Shown: piece by piece, positions 4,995 through 18,014 of the stretch
How positions within the stretch are numbered: the stretch's first letter is position 1
How the letters are laid out: each line of letters starts with the position of its first letter
NCBI GenBank assembly: GCA_021324595.1
Contig: JAJPIV010000019.1
Location: 1-34,670, forward strand
Origin: Actinomycetota bacterium
GTDB taxonomy: Bacteria > Actinomycetota > Actinomycetes > Streptosporangiales > Streptosporangiaceae
Direction of reading: 5' to 3'
DNA: 34,670 nucleotides
Program-made: the position numbers and the translations under genes
The notes under the pieces: generated by a model
What the model was told of the DNA's origin: nothing
Seen by the model: only the letters and a program-made list of their open reading frames with translations
Databases searched by the model: none

Positions 4995-5017
4995 GCACCC
5001 CTCGGTAAGGAGCCCCG

Positions 5018-11320: not shown

Positions 11321-11788
11321 ATGCCCGTTCCAGACAGTGACTCCGAACCGCGGCCCGCGCGTGGCGTCGCGGGGCCGATCTGGCTCATCGAGCACGCTCA
11401 GGACGCGGTCACCGTGCTGGTCGGCGTCACCCTCATCCTGCTCGCCGGGACGCTCATGGTGGCAGGCATCGTCGACTTCGCCCGCACGGTGTCGGGCTCG
11501 GTCGCGGGCGCGGCGACCAACCTGCTCGACCGCGTGCTCCTCGTGCTGATCCTCGTCGAGATCGTGCACACGGTGGTGCTCTCGCTGCGGGCCCACCGGC
11601 TGATCGCCCAGCCATTCATCGTCGTCGGCCTGGTCGCGGTGATACGGCGGATACTGTTCGTGCTCAGCAGCCCGCAGCCGCCCGCCACCTCCGAGCTCGC
11701 GCTGCTGATCGCGATGGTGGTGGCCTTCGTGGCGGGCCTGATCGCGGTCAGCCGGTTCGAGCGCCGCCGGGACGGCGACACGCTCTGA
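11321..11788 (+). CDS. PsiE-like (phosphate-starvation-inducible E family) membrane protein
   Basis: 155 residues with four hydrophobic helices (AVTVLVGVTLILLAGTLMVAG, LLDRVLLVLILVEIVHTVVL, QPFIVVGLVAVIRRILFVLS, LALLIAMVVAFVAGLIAV). The order and the conserved LVEIVHTV...IAQPFIVVGLVAVIRRIL stretch match the PsiE family, whose role is poorly known despite the phosphate-starvation name. There is no Shine-Dalgarno sequence; the promoter geometry suggests leaderless translation. It converges on the YjbQ-like gene, with a shared hairpin covering the last codons of both. Family call good, function open. Confidence 0.82.
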   Translation: MPVPDSDSEPRPARGVAGPIWLIEHAQDAVTVLVGVTLILLAGTLMVAGIVDFARTVSGSVAGAATNLLDRVLLVLILVEIVHTVVLSLRAHRLIAQPFIVVGLVAVIRRILFVLSSPQPPATSELALLIAMVVAFVAGLIAVSRFERRRDGDTL

Positions 11789-11805
11789 CCCGTCAGAGCG
11801 TGTCG
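11776..11805. terminator. Perfect 14-bp bidirectional hairpin over the ends of two convergent genes
   Basis: Arms at 11776-11789 and 11792-11805 pair without mismatch around a 2-nt CC loop. Because the palindrome is coding on both strands, both proteins end in the same residues, Asp-Thr-Leu. Both TGA stop codons lie in the arms. Confidence 0.75.
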
Positions 11806-12212
11806 TCCAGGAACGACAGCCGGACCGTGCGCTCAGGGTTGTCGGCGTTGAGGTCGACGACCGCGACGGACTGCCAAGTGCCCAGCGCGAGCGCGCCGTT
11901 GACGACCGGCAGCACGGCGAACGGCGGCACGAGCGCGGGGAGCACGTGCGACCGGCCGTGCCCGGCCGAGCCGTGCCGGTGGCGCCAGCGGTCGTCGGCC
12001 GGCAGCAGGCCATCGAGCACGGCGAGCAGGTCGTCCTCGCTTCCCGAGCCCAGCTCCAGGACCGCGATGCCGGCGGTGGCGTGCGGGAGGAAGACGTGCA
12101 GCAGCCCGTCCCCGCCGGCCGCGGCGTGCCTGGCGAAGTCCGCGCACCGCGGGGTGATGTCGTGCACGCCCGGCTCGCTGCCGGTTCGCAGTCCGAAGGT
12201 CGTGGTCTTCAC
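11793..12212 (-). CDS. YjbQ/UPF0047-family protein
   Basis: 139 residues from a GTG start, the standard length of the family. Typical motifs are KTTTFGLRT, HDITPRCADFAR, GLLHVFLPHATAGIAVLE, RWRHRHGSAGHGRSHVLPALV and the closing QSVAVVDLN. The conserved His/Glu set forms a probable metal site; family members have been reported to show thiamine-phosphate-synthase-like activity in vitro, but the cellular role is unsettled. I prefer GTG 12212 over the ATG three codons upstream: GGAGGA lies about 9 nt before the GTG but directly against the ATG, too close to work. The protein then begins MKTTTF-like, as in homologs. Convergent with the psiE-like gene. Confidence 0.87.
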   Translation of the reverse strand: MKTTTFGLRTGSEPGVHDITPRCADFARHAAAGGDGLLHVFLPHATAGIAVLELGSGSEDDLLAVLDGLLPADDRWRHRHGSAGHGRSHVLPALVPPFAVLPVVNGALALGTWQSVAVVDLNADNPERTVRLSFLDDTL

Positions 12213-12301
12213 CGGGCGCATTCCTCCGTGGCAGGCTGGCCGTGACCGCCGGGCCGCGGCTGCGGCCGGGACGGCGACCCGGGGCGCCGGCCCGGCCGGC
12301 C

Positions 12302-12589
12302 CTACTGCCGCCGCGACGTGCTCGCCACGCCGTCGTTCTGCCACGCGCTCGCTCCGGCGACGGTGGCGGCCCGGGCTTGTGCGATCTTGCGCCTGATTAT
12401 CGCACCCGGCGGTTCCTGCTGAGCCATGATCCAGCGGCGGACCGTGTTCACGATGGCGGTGCCGGTGATCCCGGCGCCGCACAGGCTGATCAGGCCGCCG
12501 GTGGCGACCAGGGCGAACCCCACGATCATGGCCTTGGACGTGCCAGGGCTCATGGCGGGGTCGGCTGCGGGTGCGCGGGTGCTCGTCAT
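12302..12589 (-). CDS. Small single-span membrane protein, unknown function
   Basis: 95 residues with one hydrophobic stretch (about 20-48: KAMIVGFALVATGGLISLCG, then AGITGTAIVNTV) flanked by a Ser/Thr/Pro-rich N terminus and a basic C terminus (RRWIMAQQ, IIRRKIAQAR). I do not recognise a family. The ATG at 12589 has GGGGG about 7 nt upstream. The gene points away from the BTAD gene; the 169-bp region between the two starts holds the perfect 43-nt palindrome. Codon use and the ribosome-binding site support a real gene. Confidence 0.6.
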   Translation of the reverse strand: MTSTRAPAADPAMSPGTSKAMIVGFALVATGGLISLCGAGITGTAIVNTVRRWIMAQQEPPGAIIRRKIAQARAATVAGASAWQNDGVASTSRRQ

Positions 12590-12635
12590 GTCATCCCCCG
12601 ATTCGGTCGAGCTCCGCAGTGGGAGTACCCGCCGG

Positions 12636-12678
12636 CCCGCCCGCGCGATCACCCGCAGCGGGTGATCGCGCGGGCGGG
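12636..12678. repeat. Perfect 43-nt palindrome (21-bp arms, 1-nt centre) between divergent genes
   Basis: The arm at 12636-12656 is the exact reverse complement of 12658-12678, with a lone A at 12657. A related half-site, CGATCACC, recurs at 12695-12702. Since the neighbouring genes diverge, it is not at the 3' end of either and does not fit a terminator. It may be a strong operator shared by both genes, a cruciform-forming element, or a relic of a small mobile repeat. Confidence 0.85.
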
Positions 12679-12758
12679 TGACCGCCGCATGGCACGATCA
12701 CCGCCGCCGGCCCCGGCGGCCGCGCCTGCCACAGCCACGGCCCGCCCCGGGGGCGCCC

Positions 12759-13835
12759 GTGAGCACTATGCTGATGTGCCCGATGGCCTTATCACCTCTT
12801 TTCTCCGGCGCATTCACATTCGGCGGCGGGCTGCTCGCCGGGGGCCTGCTGGTCGCCGTCGCCCTCGGGCGCACCACGCACGCCCGCACCGAGGCCGCCC
12901 GCACCGAGGCCGCCCGCACCGAGGCGACGGCCAGGTCCGGGCCGGCCGGCGTTCCGGCCAGCCCGCCGCCCGGCGCACCGCCCAGCCCGCCGCCCGGCGC
13001 ACCGGCCAGCCCGCCGCCCGGCGCACCGCCCGGGCTGCGGATCGGCGTCCTCGGCCCGCTCACGATCAATGGCCAGCCGGCCGCCCTGCTCCCAGCCCAG
13101 AGCCAGCTGCTCGTGGCGCTCGCCGTGCACGGCCCGCTCACCGGTCGCAGGCTCTGCGAGCTGCTCGGCGGCGAGCCCGGCCGCCCGCGCCCGCCCGGCT
13201 CCCTGCGGCAGCTGATCGTCCGCACGCGGCGCCAGCTCGGCCTGGCGCCCGGCGGCCGGCAGTGGATCGAGCATCTCGGCCAGGGCAGGTACGCGCTGCA
13301 CCCGGACGCCTGCGTGGACCTGAGCGAGTTCGACGAGCTCGCCGCCCGTGGCCTGCGCGACCGCACGGCCCCGCCGCTGCGGGCCGCGCTCGCCATGGTC
13401 CGGGGCGAGCCGTTCGAGGCGTGCTGCTACTGGTGGCTGGACCTGGCCGTGGCGGAGCGGGCCCGGGTGCGGATCGCCGAGGCTGCCCGGGTCCTGTGCA
13501 GCCTGGAACTCGCCGCCGGAAATCCCGGCGGGGCTGCCCGCGCCGCGCGGGCCGGGCTGGGGGCGGATCCGGCTGATGAGGACCTGTGGCGCGCGCTGAT
13601 GCGCGCCGAGCATGCCGCGGGGAACCTCGCCGGGGTACAAGAGGCGTGGGCCCGCTGCCGGGAGGCGATCGGGCAGGTGGCGGCCGGGGGCCAGCCGGGC
13701 CCGGCAACTGCGGCCGTCTTCCGGGAACTGACCGGCCGGTACCATGCTCCGAAGGCCAGGCTGGAGCGGATGGGTCATGCAGCAGGACGTGGTGGTCACC
13801 GACCACCTGGAGCCGAGGGTCCGGGTCCCGGCTGA
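12759..13835 (+). CDS. Membrane-anchored winged-helix/BTAD (SARP-like) protein
   Basis: 358 residues. One transmembrane helix (about 10-36, FTFGGGLLAGGLLVAVAL) is followed by a repeat-rich, Ala/Arg/Thr/Glu then Pro/Gly linker (about 42-92). The cytoplasmic part has a winged-helix-like region (LRIGVLGPLTINGQPAALLP to QGRYALHPDACVDLSEFDEL) and a bacterial transcriptional activator domain of tetratricopeptide type (AALAMVRGEPFE, ERARVRIAEAARVL, RALMRAEHAAGNLAGVQEAW). This is the SARP layout but tethered to the membrane; comparable domains end large LysM/BTAD membrane proteins. I chose GTG 12759 because GGGGG lies 6 nt before it; ATG 12768 is a possible alternative. The 3' end overlaps the next gene by 59 bp in another frame. 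Target DNA unknown. Confidence 0.72.
   Translation: MSTMLMCPMALSPLFSGAFTFGGGLLAGGLLVAVALGRTTHARTEAARTEAARTEATARSGPAGVPASPPPGAPPSPPPGAPASPPPGAPPGLRIGVLGPLTINGQPAALLPAQSQLLVALAVHGPLTGRRLCELLGGEPGRPRPPGSLRQLIVRTRRQLGLAPGGRQWIEHLGQGRYALHPDACVDLSEFDELAARGLRDRTAPPLRAALAMVRGEPFEACCYWWLDLAVAERARVRIAEAARVLCSLELAAGNPGGAARAARAGLGADPADEDLWRALMRAEHAAGNLAGVQEAWARCREAIGQVAAGGQPGPATAAVFRELTGRYHAPKARLERMGHAAGRGGHRPPGAEGPGPG
12882..13031 (+). repeat. Two in-frame tandem repeats in the BTAD protein linker
   Basis: Three copies of a 15-nt unit (12882-12926) encode Ala-Arg-Thr-Glu-Ala. Three copies of a 24-nt unit (12960-12983, 12984-13007, 13008-13031) encode Ser-Pro-Pro-Pro-Gly-Ala-Pro plus Pro or Ala. Copies are nearly identical at DNA level, so copy number may vary between strains and alter linker length. 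Confidence 0.85.
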
Positions 13836-16119
13836 CCTGCTGCGCTGCCTGCTGTCCGTGGCCGAGATCGCCGCCCTGGCCGGGATCGCGCTGCTGGCCG
13901 GGGCCACGGCCACCGGACTGGACATCGACATCGTGGGGGCCAGCCACCGGCTGCCGGCCGGGCTGCTCCGCCTGATCGGCTATGCGGGCAGCCTGGTCCT
14001 GCTGACCCTGCCGGTCGCCCTCGCGGTCCGGCTGCTCCTGCTCCGGCAGTTCCGCAGGCTCACCGAGGCGCTGATCACCGGCGGGATCACCGCGGGCGGC
14101 GTGGCCGTGATCGACCTGCTGCTCAGCTCGCCGTCCAGGCTGCACGCGGCGCTGCACACCCCGGCACCGGGGCCCACGTTCGACGGCTACCTCGCCGCCG
14201 TGGTCGCCTACGTCACCGTCATCGGGCTGCGTGGCCACGCCCACTGGCGGCCGGCCTTCCTCACCGGGATCGCGTTCTACGGGCTGACCAGCCTGGCCTC
14301 CGGCCATGCCACCGTCGTCTCGGTGCTGATCACGGTGCTGATCGGATCGGCGACCGGATCGGGCCTGCGCTACGCGTTCGGCGCGATATCCGGCCGTCCC
14401 ACCGCTGCCGAGATCGCAGCGGCGCTGAGCACCGACGGCGCGCCGATCACCACGATCCGCCGGCTGGGCAACGGGGCATCCGAGACACGGCGCTACGAGG
14501 CGAGGACGGCCGCCGGGCGGCGGCTCGACGTGACCGTCTTCGACCGTGACCAGCAGGCGGCGGACGCCTTTTACCGCCTGTACCGCAGGCTCCGGGTCAG
14601 CGCCCACATCTCGCGCAGCGCGCCGCTGTCCCTGGAGGGCGCGGTGGAGCGCCAGGCGCTGATGATCTGGGCGACGCGGGACGCGGGCGTGCTGACGCCG
14701 AAGCTCCGCGCGGTGACCAGGGTGGGGCCGGATGCCGCGGCACTGGCCACGGACCACGTGGAGGGGACCACGCTGGCCGACTCCGGCGCTGCCACCACCG
14801 ACGATGAGCTGCGGCGCGTGTGGGACGCCGTGCTCAGGCTTCACGAGCACCGGGTCACCCACCGGGCGCTCACCGCCGACCGGATCCTGATCACCCGGCG
14901 GGGCGAGGTCGTGCTGCTGGACCCGGGCAACGGCGACGTGGCCGCCTCCGACCTGCAGACCCGCCTCGACCTGGTCCAGCTCATCGCCCAGACCGCGCTG
15001 CTGGTCGGCGCCGACCGGGCCGCGGACGTGGCGATCGAGAAGGCCGGCCGGGTGGAGCTGCTCGTCCCGCTGCTGCAGCCGGTGGCGCTGTTCCGGTCCA
15101 CCAGGGCGGCGCTGCGCGGGCGCAAGGACATCCTCGGCGCCGTGCGCAAGCGCCTGCTCGCCGCCGCCCCCGACGTGCAGGTCCCGCCCGTGCAGCTGAC
15201 GCGGATCAGGCCCCGCACCCTGATCACCCTGATCGCCGCCGTGTTCGCCGCCTACCTGCTCGCCGGGCAGGTCGCGGACGTGTCGTTCTCCAAGCTGCTC
15301 GCGCACGCGAACCCGGGCTGGATGCTGGTCGCGCTCGGGCTCTCCGCAGCCACCTACGTGGGCGCGGCGATCTCCCTGTCCGGCTTCGTGCTCGAGCGGC
15401 TGAGCCTGCTGCGCACCTTCCTCGTGCAGGTCGCCGGGTCGTTCGTCATCCTGGTCACCCCGGCGGCGGTGGGCGGAGCCGCGCTGAACCTGCGCTACCT
15501 GCGGCGGGCGAAGCTGGCCGCCGCCGACGCGGCCGCCAGCGTGGGCGTCACCCAGGTGATCTCGTTCCTGATCTATGTGGTGCTGCTGCTGATCGTGACC
15601 GCGATCACCGGGACCTCGCGCACGGTGTCGGTGCCCGCATGGGCCTTCATCGCGCTGGCGGTCGTGGTCGGCCTGGTGCTGATCGTGCTCGCCCTGCCGG
15701 CCGGCCGCCGCTGGCTGCTCTCGCGGGTGGCCACGGCCGCCAGCCAGGTGGTGCCGCGCCTGCTGGACGTGGCGCAGCGCCCGGTCAAGCTCGCGCAGGG
15801 GATCGGGGGAGCGCTGCTGCTCACGGCCGCCTACATCCTGTGCCTGGCGGCCTCGGTCAAGGCGCTCGGCGCGACCGTCCCCCCGCTGGCCAGCGTGGCG
15901 GTGGTCTTCCTGACCGGGAGCGCGGTCGGCTCCCTGGTGCCGACCCCGGGCGGGCTCGGCGCGATCGAGGCCGCGCTGTCGACCGGGCTGATCGCGGCTG
16001 GCGTGCCGGGGGCCAAGGCGGTGACGGCGGTGCTGCTGTTCCGGATGGTCACGTTCTGGCTGCCGGTTCCAGCCGGGTGGCTGGCGATGCACTACCTGCA
16101 GCGCCGCGACCTGCTCTGA
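13777..16119 (+). CDS. Large membrane protein: N-terminal helices, kinase-like domain lacking catalytic residues, LPG-synthase/flippase-type membrane domain
   Basis: 780 residues. Residues 1-210 hold about six hydrophobic helices. Residues 215-440 resemble a kinase fold (TTIRRLGNGASETRRYEA as a glycine-loop-like start; HRALTADRILI as catalytic loop; VVLLDPGN as the metal-binding segment). The catalytic Asp of the loop is replaced (His362-Arg363-Ala364), the usual Asn is Arg, and the strand that normally carries the ATP-binding Lys reads LDVTVF, so this looks like a pseudokinase, although Asp382 remains. Residues 465-780 form the lysylphosphatidylglycerol-synthase transmembrane domain (UPF0104; TPAAVGGAALNLRYLRRA, VPTPGGLGAIEAAL) related to lipid flippases. 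There is no aminoacyl-transferase domain. The start at ATG 13777 is inside the BTAD gene; a start 11 codons earlier is possible. Likely a lipid-handling protein controlled through its soluble domain (inference). Confidence 0.8.
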   Translation: MQQDVVVTDHLEPRVRVPADLLRCLLSVAEIAALAGIALLAGATATGLDIDIVGASHRLPAGLLRLIGYAGSLVLLTLPVALAVRLLLLRQFRRLTEALITGGITAGGVAVIDLLLSSPSRLHAALHTPAPGPTFDGYLAAVVAYVTVIGLRGHAHWRPAFLTGIAFYGLTSLASGHATVVSVLITVLIGSATGSGLRYAFGAISGRPTAAEIAAALSTDGAPITTIRRLGNGASETRRYEARTAAGRRLDVTVFDRDQQAADAFYRLYRRLRVSAHISRSAPLSLEGAVERQALMIWATRDAGVLTPKLRAVTRVGPDAAALATDHVEGTTLADSGAATTDDELRRVWDAVLRLHEHRVTHRALTADRILITRRGEVVLLDPGNGDVAASDLQTRLDLVQLIAQTALLVGADRAADVAIEKAGRVELLVPLLQPVALFRSTRAALRGRKDILGAVRKRLLAAAPDVQVPPVQLTRIRPRTLITLIAAVFAAYLLAGQVADVSFSKLLAHANPGWMLVALGLSAATYVGAAISLSGFVLERLSLLRTFLVQVAGSFVILVTPAAVGGAALNLRYLRRAKLAAADAAASVGVTQVISFLIYVVLLLIVTAITGTSRTVSVPAWAFIALAVVVGLVLIVLALPAGRRWLLSRVATAASQVVPRLLDVAQRPVKLAQGIGGALLLTAAYILCLAASVKALGATVPPLASVAVVFLTGSAVGSLVPTPGGLGAIEAALSTGLIAAGVPGAKAVTAVLLFRMVTFWLPVPAGWLAMHYLQRRDLL

Positions 16120-17279: not shown

Positions 17280-18014
17280 TCACCCGAGCCGGGCGACCGC
17301 GAGCGCGGCGGCGAGCAGCACCATGCCCCAGGAGAACGCGCGCAGCGCCCTTTCCAGCGGTCGCAGCAGCCGGGCGTGGTCGAGCGTGACGGCCGAGCCG
17401 TCGGCCATCGTCACGCTCCCGCTCACGGCGCGCGCGCGCCGCCGCAGCGTCCGCGCCGGGGTGGACAGGTGCCGCTGCCCGGCTGAGATCGCCATCGCCG
17501 CGCCCGCGGCGAGGACGGGCGCCACGGCCAGGCGGCCTGCCTGGGCCACGTAGCCGGTCAGCGCCGGGAACGCGCCCCAGGCAGCGGCGAAGCCCAGGTC
17601 GGTGTGGATGGCACCGCCGAACAGCTCGGCGTTGTAGCCGACGACGAGCAGCGGTCCGATGATCATGAACGGGAGCAGCGCCCAGCCCGCCCGGCTGATC
17701 CCGGCCACGCCGAGGGCGACGGCGCCGGCCAGGCCCGCCACCGTGGCCGCGACCAGGGCCGGCGCCGGGATCGCGGTGCGCAGCGGCCGCCCGTGCAGCT
17801 CGTCGAGGGCATGTGCCGCCAGCCCGACCGCCAGGAAGAACGCGGCCAGCGACGCGATCAGGCGGTCGAGCCTGACGTGCGGGGCGAGCATCGCCCCGAG
17901 CACGACGTAGGACAGGTGCCACGCGGTGAACGGCGGGTGCAGCAGCGTCCACCAGTCTCGCCAGCGGCCGGGTGCGGCGGCGTAGAAGGCCGGCCTGGCC
18001 GGCCGGTCAGCCAC
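17280..18014 (-). CDS. UbiA-superfamily-like integral membrane protein
   Basis: 244 residues with about seven hydrophobic helices. LHPPFTAWHLSYVVLGAML and HALDELHGRPLRTAIP recall the UbiA prenyltransferase fold, whose first aspartate-rich motif follows helix 2. Here that motif is reduced (Ala-His-Ala-Leu-Asp71-Glu in place of Asn-Asp-x-x-Asp), and the second aspartate motif region reads YNAELFGGAIHTD. It may be a divergent prenyltransferase or a non-catalytic relative. The GTG start overlaps the stop of the methyltransferase by 8 bp, so the two are translationally coupled. Together they suggest prenylation and methylation of a ring compound such as a quinone, but nothing else from a quinone pathway is present. 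Confidence 0.6.
   Translation of the reverse strand: MADRPARPAFYAAAPGRWRDWWTLLHPPFTAWHLSYVVLGAMLAPHVRLDRLIASLAAFFLAVGLAAHALDELHGRPLRTAIPAPALVAATVAGLAGAVALGVAGISRAGWALLPFMIIGPLLVVGYNAELFGGAIHTDLGFAAAWGAFPALTGYVAQAGRLAVAPVLAAGAAMAISAGQRHLSTPARTLRRRARAVSGSVTMADGSAVTLDHARLLRPLERALRAFSWGMVLLAAALAVARLG

Follow-up and report, generated by a model that had tools for sequence, protein, structure and literature searches.

The probable operator core of a long palindrome

A perfect 43-nt palindrome lies between two divergent genes of a Streptosporangiaceae genome, one coding for a small membrane protein and the other for a BTAD-domain protein. Its length and position raise the question of whether it serves as an operator, and for which regulator, or acts as a structure or small repeat element. 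The window (the whole stretch of DNA analysed, 34,670 nt) is contig C123 in a 168-contig assembly of a 4.09-Mb genome, referred to below as G000. The two arms of the palindrome (12636-12656 and 12658-12678) are complementary at 21 of 21 positions around a single A at 12657, as claimed in the original prediction. The palindrome (12636-12678) is genuine and chance is excluded: under a base-composition model, perfect 21-bp arms with a spacer of 0-8 nt are expected about 7e-6 times per window and about 9e-4 times per genome. It is far longer than the second-longest perfect short-spacer palindrome in the window, which has 14-bp arms (11776-11805) and a 2-nt loop, lies between convergent genes for PsiE-like and UPF0047 proteins, and is probably a two-way terminator.

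The proposed target gene (12302-12590, minus strand) codes for a membrane protein of 95 aa, for which Pfam and NCBIfam gave no match; its ATG at 12590 is preceded by GGGGGA. The UPF0047 gene (11793-12221, minus strand) follows on its 3' side, as it also does in the congeneric genomes G001 and G004. The divergent gene on the other side of the palindrome (12768-13835, plus strand) codes for a protein with an N-terminal hydrophobic segment and a BTAD domain, and is a possible second target. Its translation probably begins at the ATG at 12768 or later, rather than at the GTG at 12678, a judgement based on the G001 homologue, whose predicted start falls just ahead of the transmembrane segment. The order of the BTAD gene and a following LPG_synthase_TM-type gene is common to four genomes of the genus (window 12768-16119; L045, L046 and L048).

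Comparison with relatives divides the palindrome into a core, TCACCC-GCAGC-GGGTGA (12649-12665), and two locus-specific, unconserved outer arms of 13 bp, one on the membrane-protein side (12636-12648) and one on the BTAD side (12666-12678). Within the genus, the membrane protein has orthologues in G001, G003 and G004, and none was found in G002. All four carriers, G000 included, have TCACCC-N5-GGGTGA upstream of the gene, with coding-strand spacers of gctgc (G000), ggcga (G001 and G004) and ggtca (G003). At the family level, the motif was found upstream of 26 of 30 membrane-protein homologues at two mismatches or fewer, often as TCACCC-N5-GGATGA, and the reversed-motif control at the same 30 homologues was never better than three mismatches. 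The consensus drawn from 107 sites is TCACCCGnnnCGG(G/A)TGA, with A or T favoured immediately outside, and no base pairing is conserved among these sites beyond the 17-bp core. Only one other site among 148, in locus L069, has 13 contiguous outer pairs; there the hairpin is followed by TTTT and is probably a terminator picked up by the pattern.

Because outer pairing is unconserved among the 107 sites and nearly absent from the 148, the putative operator is the 17-bp core alone, and the outer arms are peculiar to the 12636-12678 locus. The original prediction had invoked selection or recent origin and proposed a search for conservation upstream of orthologues of either gene. The core is indeed conserved, and it accompanies the membrane-protein gene even where the BTAD gene lies elsewhere; the outer arms have no share in this conservation. 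Recent origin, in the G000 lineage, probably holds for the outer arms only; they may also be an assembly error. An ancestral outer arm was considered across the four promoters of the genus, and the one match, to GCGCGGGCGGG in G001, is 8 bp off register and was discounted. The locus thereby separates 17 conserved base pairs of a striking palindrome from outer arms that are probably recent.

Several partial matches were noted in the window. A further half-site had been flagged after the palindrome, and CGATCACC does exist at 12695-12702 (plus strand), but it is unpaired, a partner at the operator spacing being absent. An additional GGGTGA half-site (12676-12681, plus strand) overlaps the arm end. 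A one-mismatch site, TCACCCGAGCCGGGCGA (17280-17296), lies at the 3' end of a gene and is probably due to chance.

Distribution of the core and its associated genes

Genomes of the genus contain two to four exact TCACCC-N5-GGGTGA sites each, and no copies of the reversed pattern. Across the family, the 24 genomes that carry the membrane-protein family have 118 sites, compared with 3 for the control, and the other 176 genomes have 159, compared with 14 (Mann-Whitney p ~5e-13; 200 genomes in all), these counts being drawn from MAGs and including chance and terminator matches. According to gene calls that, outside the window, come from a simple predictor, many of the inspected sites lie ahead of genes for DUF1269, DUF7144, DUF2252, DUF308, GH15, sulfatase, SulP, glycogen-debranching or CMD-like proteins, and several flank genes for large LuxR-family ATPases (LALs). 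In these soil actinobacteria the core appears to mark a small regulon that would include the DUF1269, DUF7144, DUF2252, DUF308, GH15 and sulfatase genes.

Two genes for short repetitive proteins composed of HPLLLAALMRRRR units, of unassigned family, were also observed (L122:4178-4414 in G000:C104 and L126:2194-2772 in G004:C316). Each has an N5 site upstream and a second conserved small gene downstream.

Comparison with the MalT motifs of Actinoplanes and E. coli

Among published sites, the one described for MalT of Actinoplanes sp. SE50/110 by Droste et al. in 2020 comes closest, and the core of the palindrome is mainly a new example of that kind; a literature search for the exact motif gave no match. 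In Actinoplanes, TCATCC-5nt-GGATGA occurs upstream of 17 transcription starts and ends 34.4 nt before them, and the dependence of the region on MalT (ACSP50_3915) was demonstrated by deletion and overexpression, deletion abolishing expression of the regulon (PMC7567727). The core at 12649-12665 has half-sites of the same type (TCAYCC/GGRTGA) and exactly the same 5-nt spacer. Both systems also have a MalT-like LuxR-family regulator (a candidate one in G000), many membrane genes in the regulon, and a gene order that is rearranged between species; the predicted distance to the transcription start would be compatible as well. They differ in that the Actinoplanes half-sites are TCATCC/GGATGA, whereas those of the Streptosporangiaceae are mostly TCACCC with GGGTGA or GGATGA, and in that the Actinoplanes sites lie in one 51-gene region, whereas those of the Streptosporangiaceae are scattered over the genome before other target genes. 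The G000 copy alone of the two carries 13-bp locus-specific outer arms, and in both cases the regulator is presumed to bind.

The E. coli MalT box is GGA(T/G)GA (as cited in PMC7567727 and PMC9628970). The half-site GGRTGA corresponds to its core, and MalT is the founder of the LAL family; in E. coli, however, box repeats serve maltose genes, whereas here there is a fixed inverted pair with a 5-nt spacer.

A MalT-like LAL as candidate regulator

A MalT-like LAL is encoded in G000, and sites occur at LAL promoters in its relatives. The candidate is an ORF at G000:C151 (L148:2753-5887, minus strand) with GerE and MalT-like TPR regions. These regions recur in its orthologues, whose HTH is almost invariant while the remainder is about 45% identical. 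Named close relatives of the genus LAL come from MAGs labelled Streptosporangiaceae, Streptosporangiales or Actinomycetes/Actinobacteria. Where upstream DNA was visible, 15 of 18 LAL orthologues have a site with at most one mismatch upstream of the LAL gene or of a DUF1269 gene that precedes it. The other three are L157, L165 and, with its site on the 3' side, L158 (G195); the weaker homologues L166 and L167 have none either. At 73 further named LAL loci, which are mostly from Actinobacteria and in some cases from the same organisms as our genomes, TCAYCC-N5-GGRTGA with at most one mismatch was present in 30, compared with 0-5 at other spacers and none for the reversed controls. Across Actinobacteria, LAL genes show enrichment for the 5-base spacer alone. 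Two further loci, reached through the TCATCC/GGATGA form, again contain a LAL gene and DUF7144-like neighbours (judged by sequence), and in L266 both this form and TCACCC/GGGTGA lie between the LAL gene and the next gene.

The conservation, enrichment and spacer specificity of the core, and its association with both the target gene and LAL promoters, argue that a MalT-like LAL probably uses it as a class-II activator operator to drive expression of the membrane-protein gene. Some observations weigh against this assignment. The site of the G000 LAL itself, 301 bp upstream, has one mismatch, and the -10-like element of the membrane-protein gene is weak in G000. Several site-rich genomes, G023, G077, G118 and G185 among them, gave no LAL match at E 1e-60, although other LAL genes lie next to sites in G185; as four candidates were scored per genome, such absences count for little. 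Many distant LALs, as in Rhodococcus and Prescottella, have no site.

The regulator would be a MalT-like LAL with an N-terminal ATPase, a MalT-type TPR region and a C-terminal LuxR/GerE HTH, for which the G000:C151 ORF is the candidate. It may bind as a dimer or oligomer, perhaps needing ATP and an inducer like MalT, with two HTH domains contacting the inverted GGRTGA half-sites. Alignment of 24 promoters revealed an AT-rich element (A23, A24 and T28 after the core) at a distance that fits the Actinoplanes geometry. In G000 this element is weaker and offset by one base: a weak -10-like hexamer, TACTCC (12627-12622, minus strand), is proposed from its position. By analogy with the geometry in PMC7567727, transcription of the membrane-protein gene is predicted to start at about 12613-12615. 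The 3' edge of the operator would then lie about 34-36 nt before the start, overlapping the -35 region, where the bound LAL could contact RNA polymerase and activate the gene in class-II fashion. The same LAL may also regulate its own gene, along with a set of membrane and polysaccharide-related genes. The outer arms would lie outside the recognized site and probably arose recently, one possible route being template switching at a quasi-palindrome.

Alternative binders and structural roles

A BldD box has a different spacing and was dismissed as the identity of the core. The core might instead serve as operator for a different LuxR/NarL-type regulator, such as a BldM-like orphan response regulator, with the LAL genes merely among its targets. 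The Streptomyces BldM Group I operator, TCACcCgnncGgGTGA, is bound by an orphan response regulator with a related LuxR/NarL-type HTH, and its half-site is nearly identical (PMC4125116); the site-rich genomes without a detected LAL also favour such a reading. The BldM spacer is, however, 4 nt rather than 5, and the two spacings have opposite genomic distributions: the five genomes of the genus contain 0, 0, 1, 0 and 0 N4 sites (none in G000), whereas N4 sites are commoner (5-10 per genome) in some N5-poor genomes. The BldM Group I operator itself was therefore rejected. Since the N5 site recurs in LAL promoters across several actinobacterial orders, and deletion of MalT abolishes expression of the analogous Actinoplanes regulon, we regard any other LuxR/NarL-type binder as unlikely. 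The N4-containing genomes (G009, G032, G035 and G037) belong to the family, and such sites are nearly absent from the genus of the window.

The original prediction favoured an operator for the neighbouring BTAD protein, which would autoregulate the divergent pair. The operator part stands, for the core; the choice of binder fares much worse. The two genes diverge around the site in G003 as they do in G000, and the binders of SARP-LAL operators are related to the BTAD neighbour. In G001, however, about 3.8 kb separates the BTAD gene, which has no site upstream, from the membrane-protein gene, which retains one, and in G004 the site likewise remains with the membrane-protein gene, the BTAD gene being on a separate contig with its promoter beyond the contig end. 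The fetched stretches around BTAD paralogues contained no sites. Moreover, SARP-LAL regulators such as PimR bind heptameric direct repeats with 4-nt (or 3-nt) spacers (PMC5930380), whereas the conserved feature here is an inverted repeat that does not track the BTAD gene, and an operator of the SARP/BTAD type was rejected. Because the site stays with the membrane-protein gene and SARP-LALs prefer direct repeats, the BTAD protein is a very improbable binder.

It is equally hard to credit that the whole palindrome functions as a cruciform, RNA hairpin, terminator or small inverted-repeat element with the motif incidental: the perfect 21-bp arms give a single-strand DNA fold of -34 kcal/mol (z -6.75), so that the cruciform suggested earlier is possible in vitro, but conservation is limited to the 17-bp core and relatives lack the outer arms. 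A terminator was rejected, in agreement with the original prediction, since the palindrome sits between divergent starts, with no T run on either flank and no gene 3' end. The mobile inverted-repeat element also proposed there was rejected because the whole genome holds a single copy of the inner 21 bp, the next-best place having three mismatches.

Spacer length and LAL regulons

The preferred assignment, to a MalT-like LAL, bears on a wider problem, as few actinobacterial LAL regulators have a known operator; in the 2022 study of SCO6993 a consensus could not be derived (PMC9628970). We tentatively propose, at somewhat under even odds, a two-part generalization: that a widespread actinobacterial clade of MalT-like LALs uses TCAYCC-N5-GGRTGA as its general operator and through it governs an old regulon of membrane and storage-sugar genes (DUF7144, DUF1269, DUF2252, GH15, sulfatase and the 95-aa membrane family), and that spacer length (N4 for BldM, N5 for the LAL clade, perhaps N6 for a paralogous LAL of G185) separates the regulons of LuxR-type HTHs that share one half-site. 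Such a sequence rule would link an operator, a likely regulator and uncharacterized membrane genes across orders, making their regulation directly testable.

In locus L107 (G185:C51:160000-179900), five TCACCC-N6-GGGTGA sites, at 5006, 6005, 8307, 12110 and 15186, span about 10 kb and surround a second LAL gene and a DUF2252-like gene. They may represent the operator of a paralogous LAL with a different spacer.
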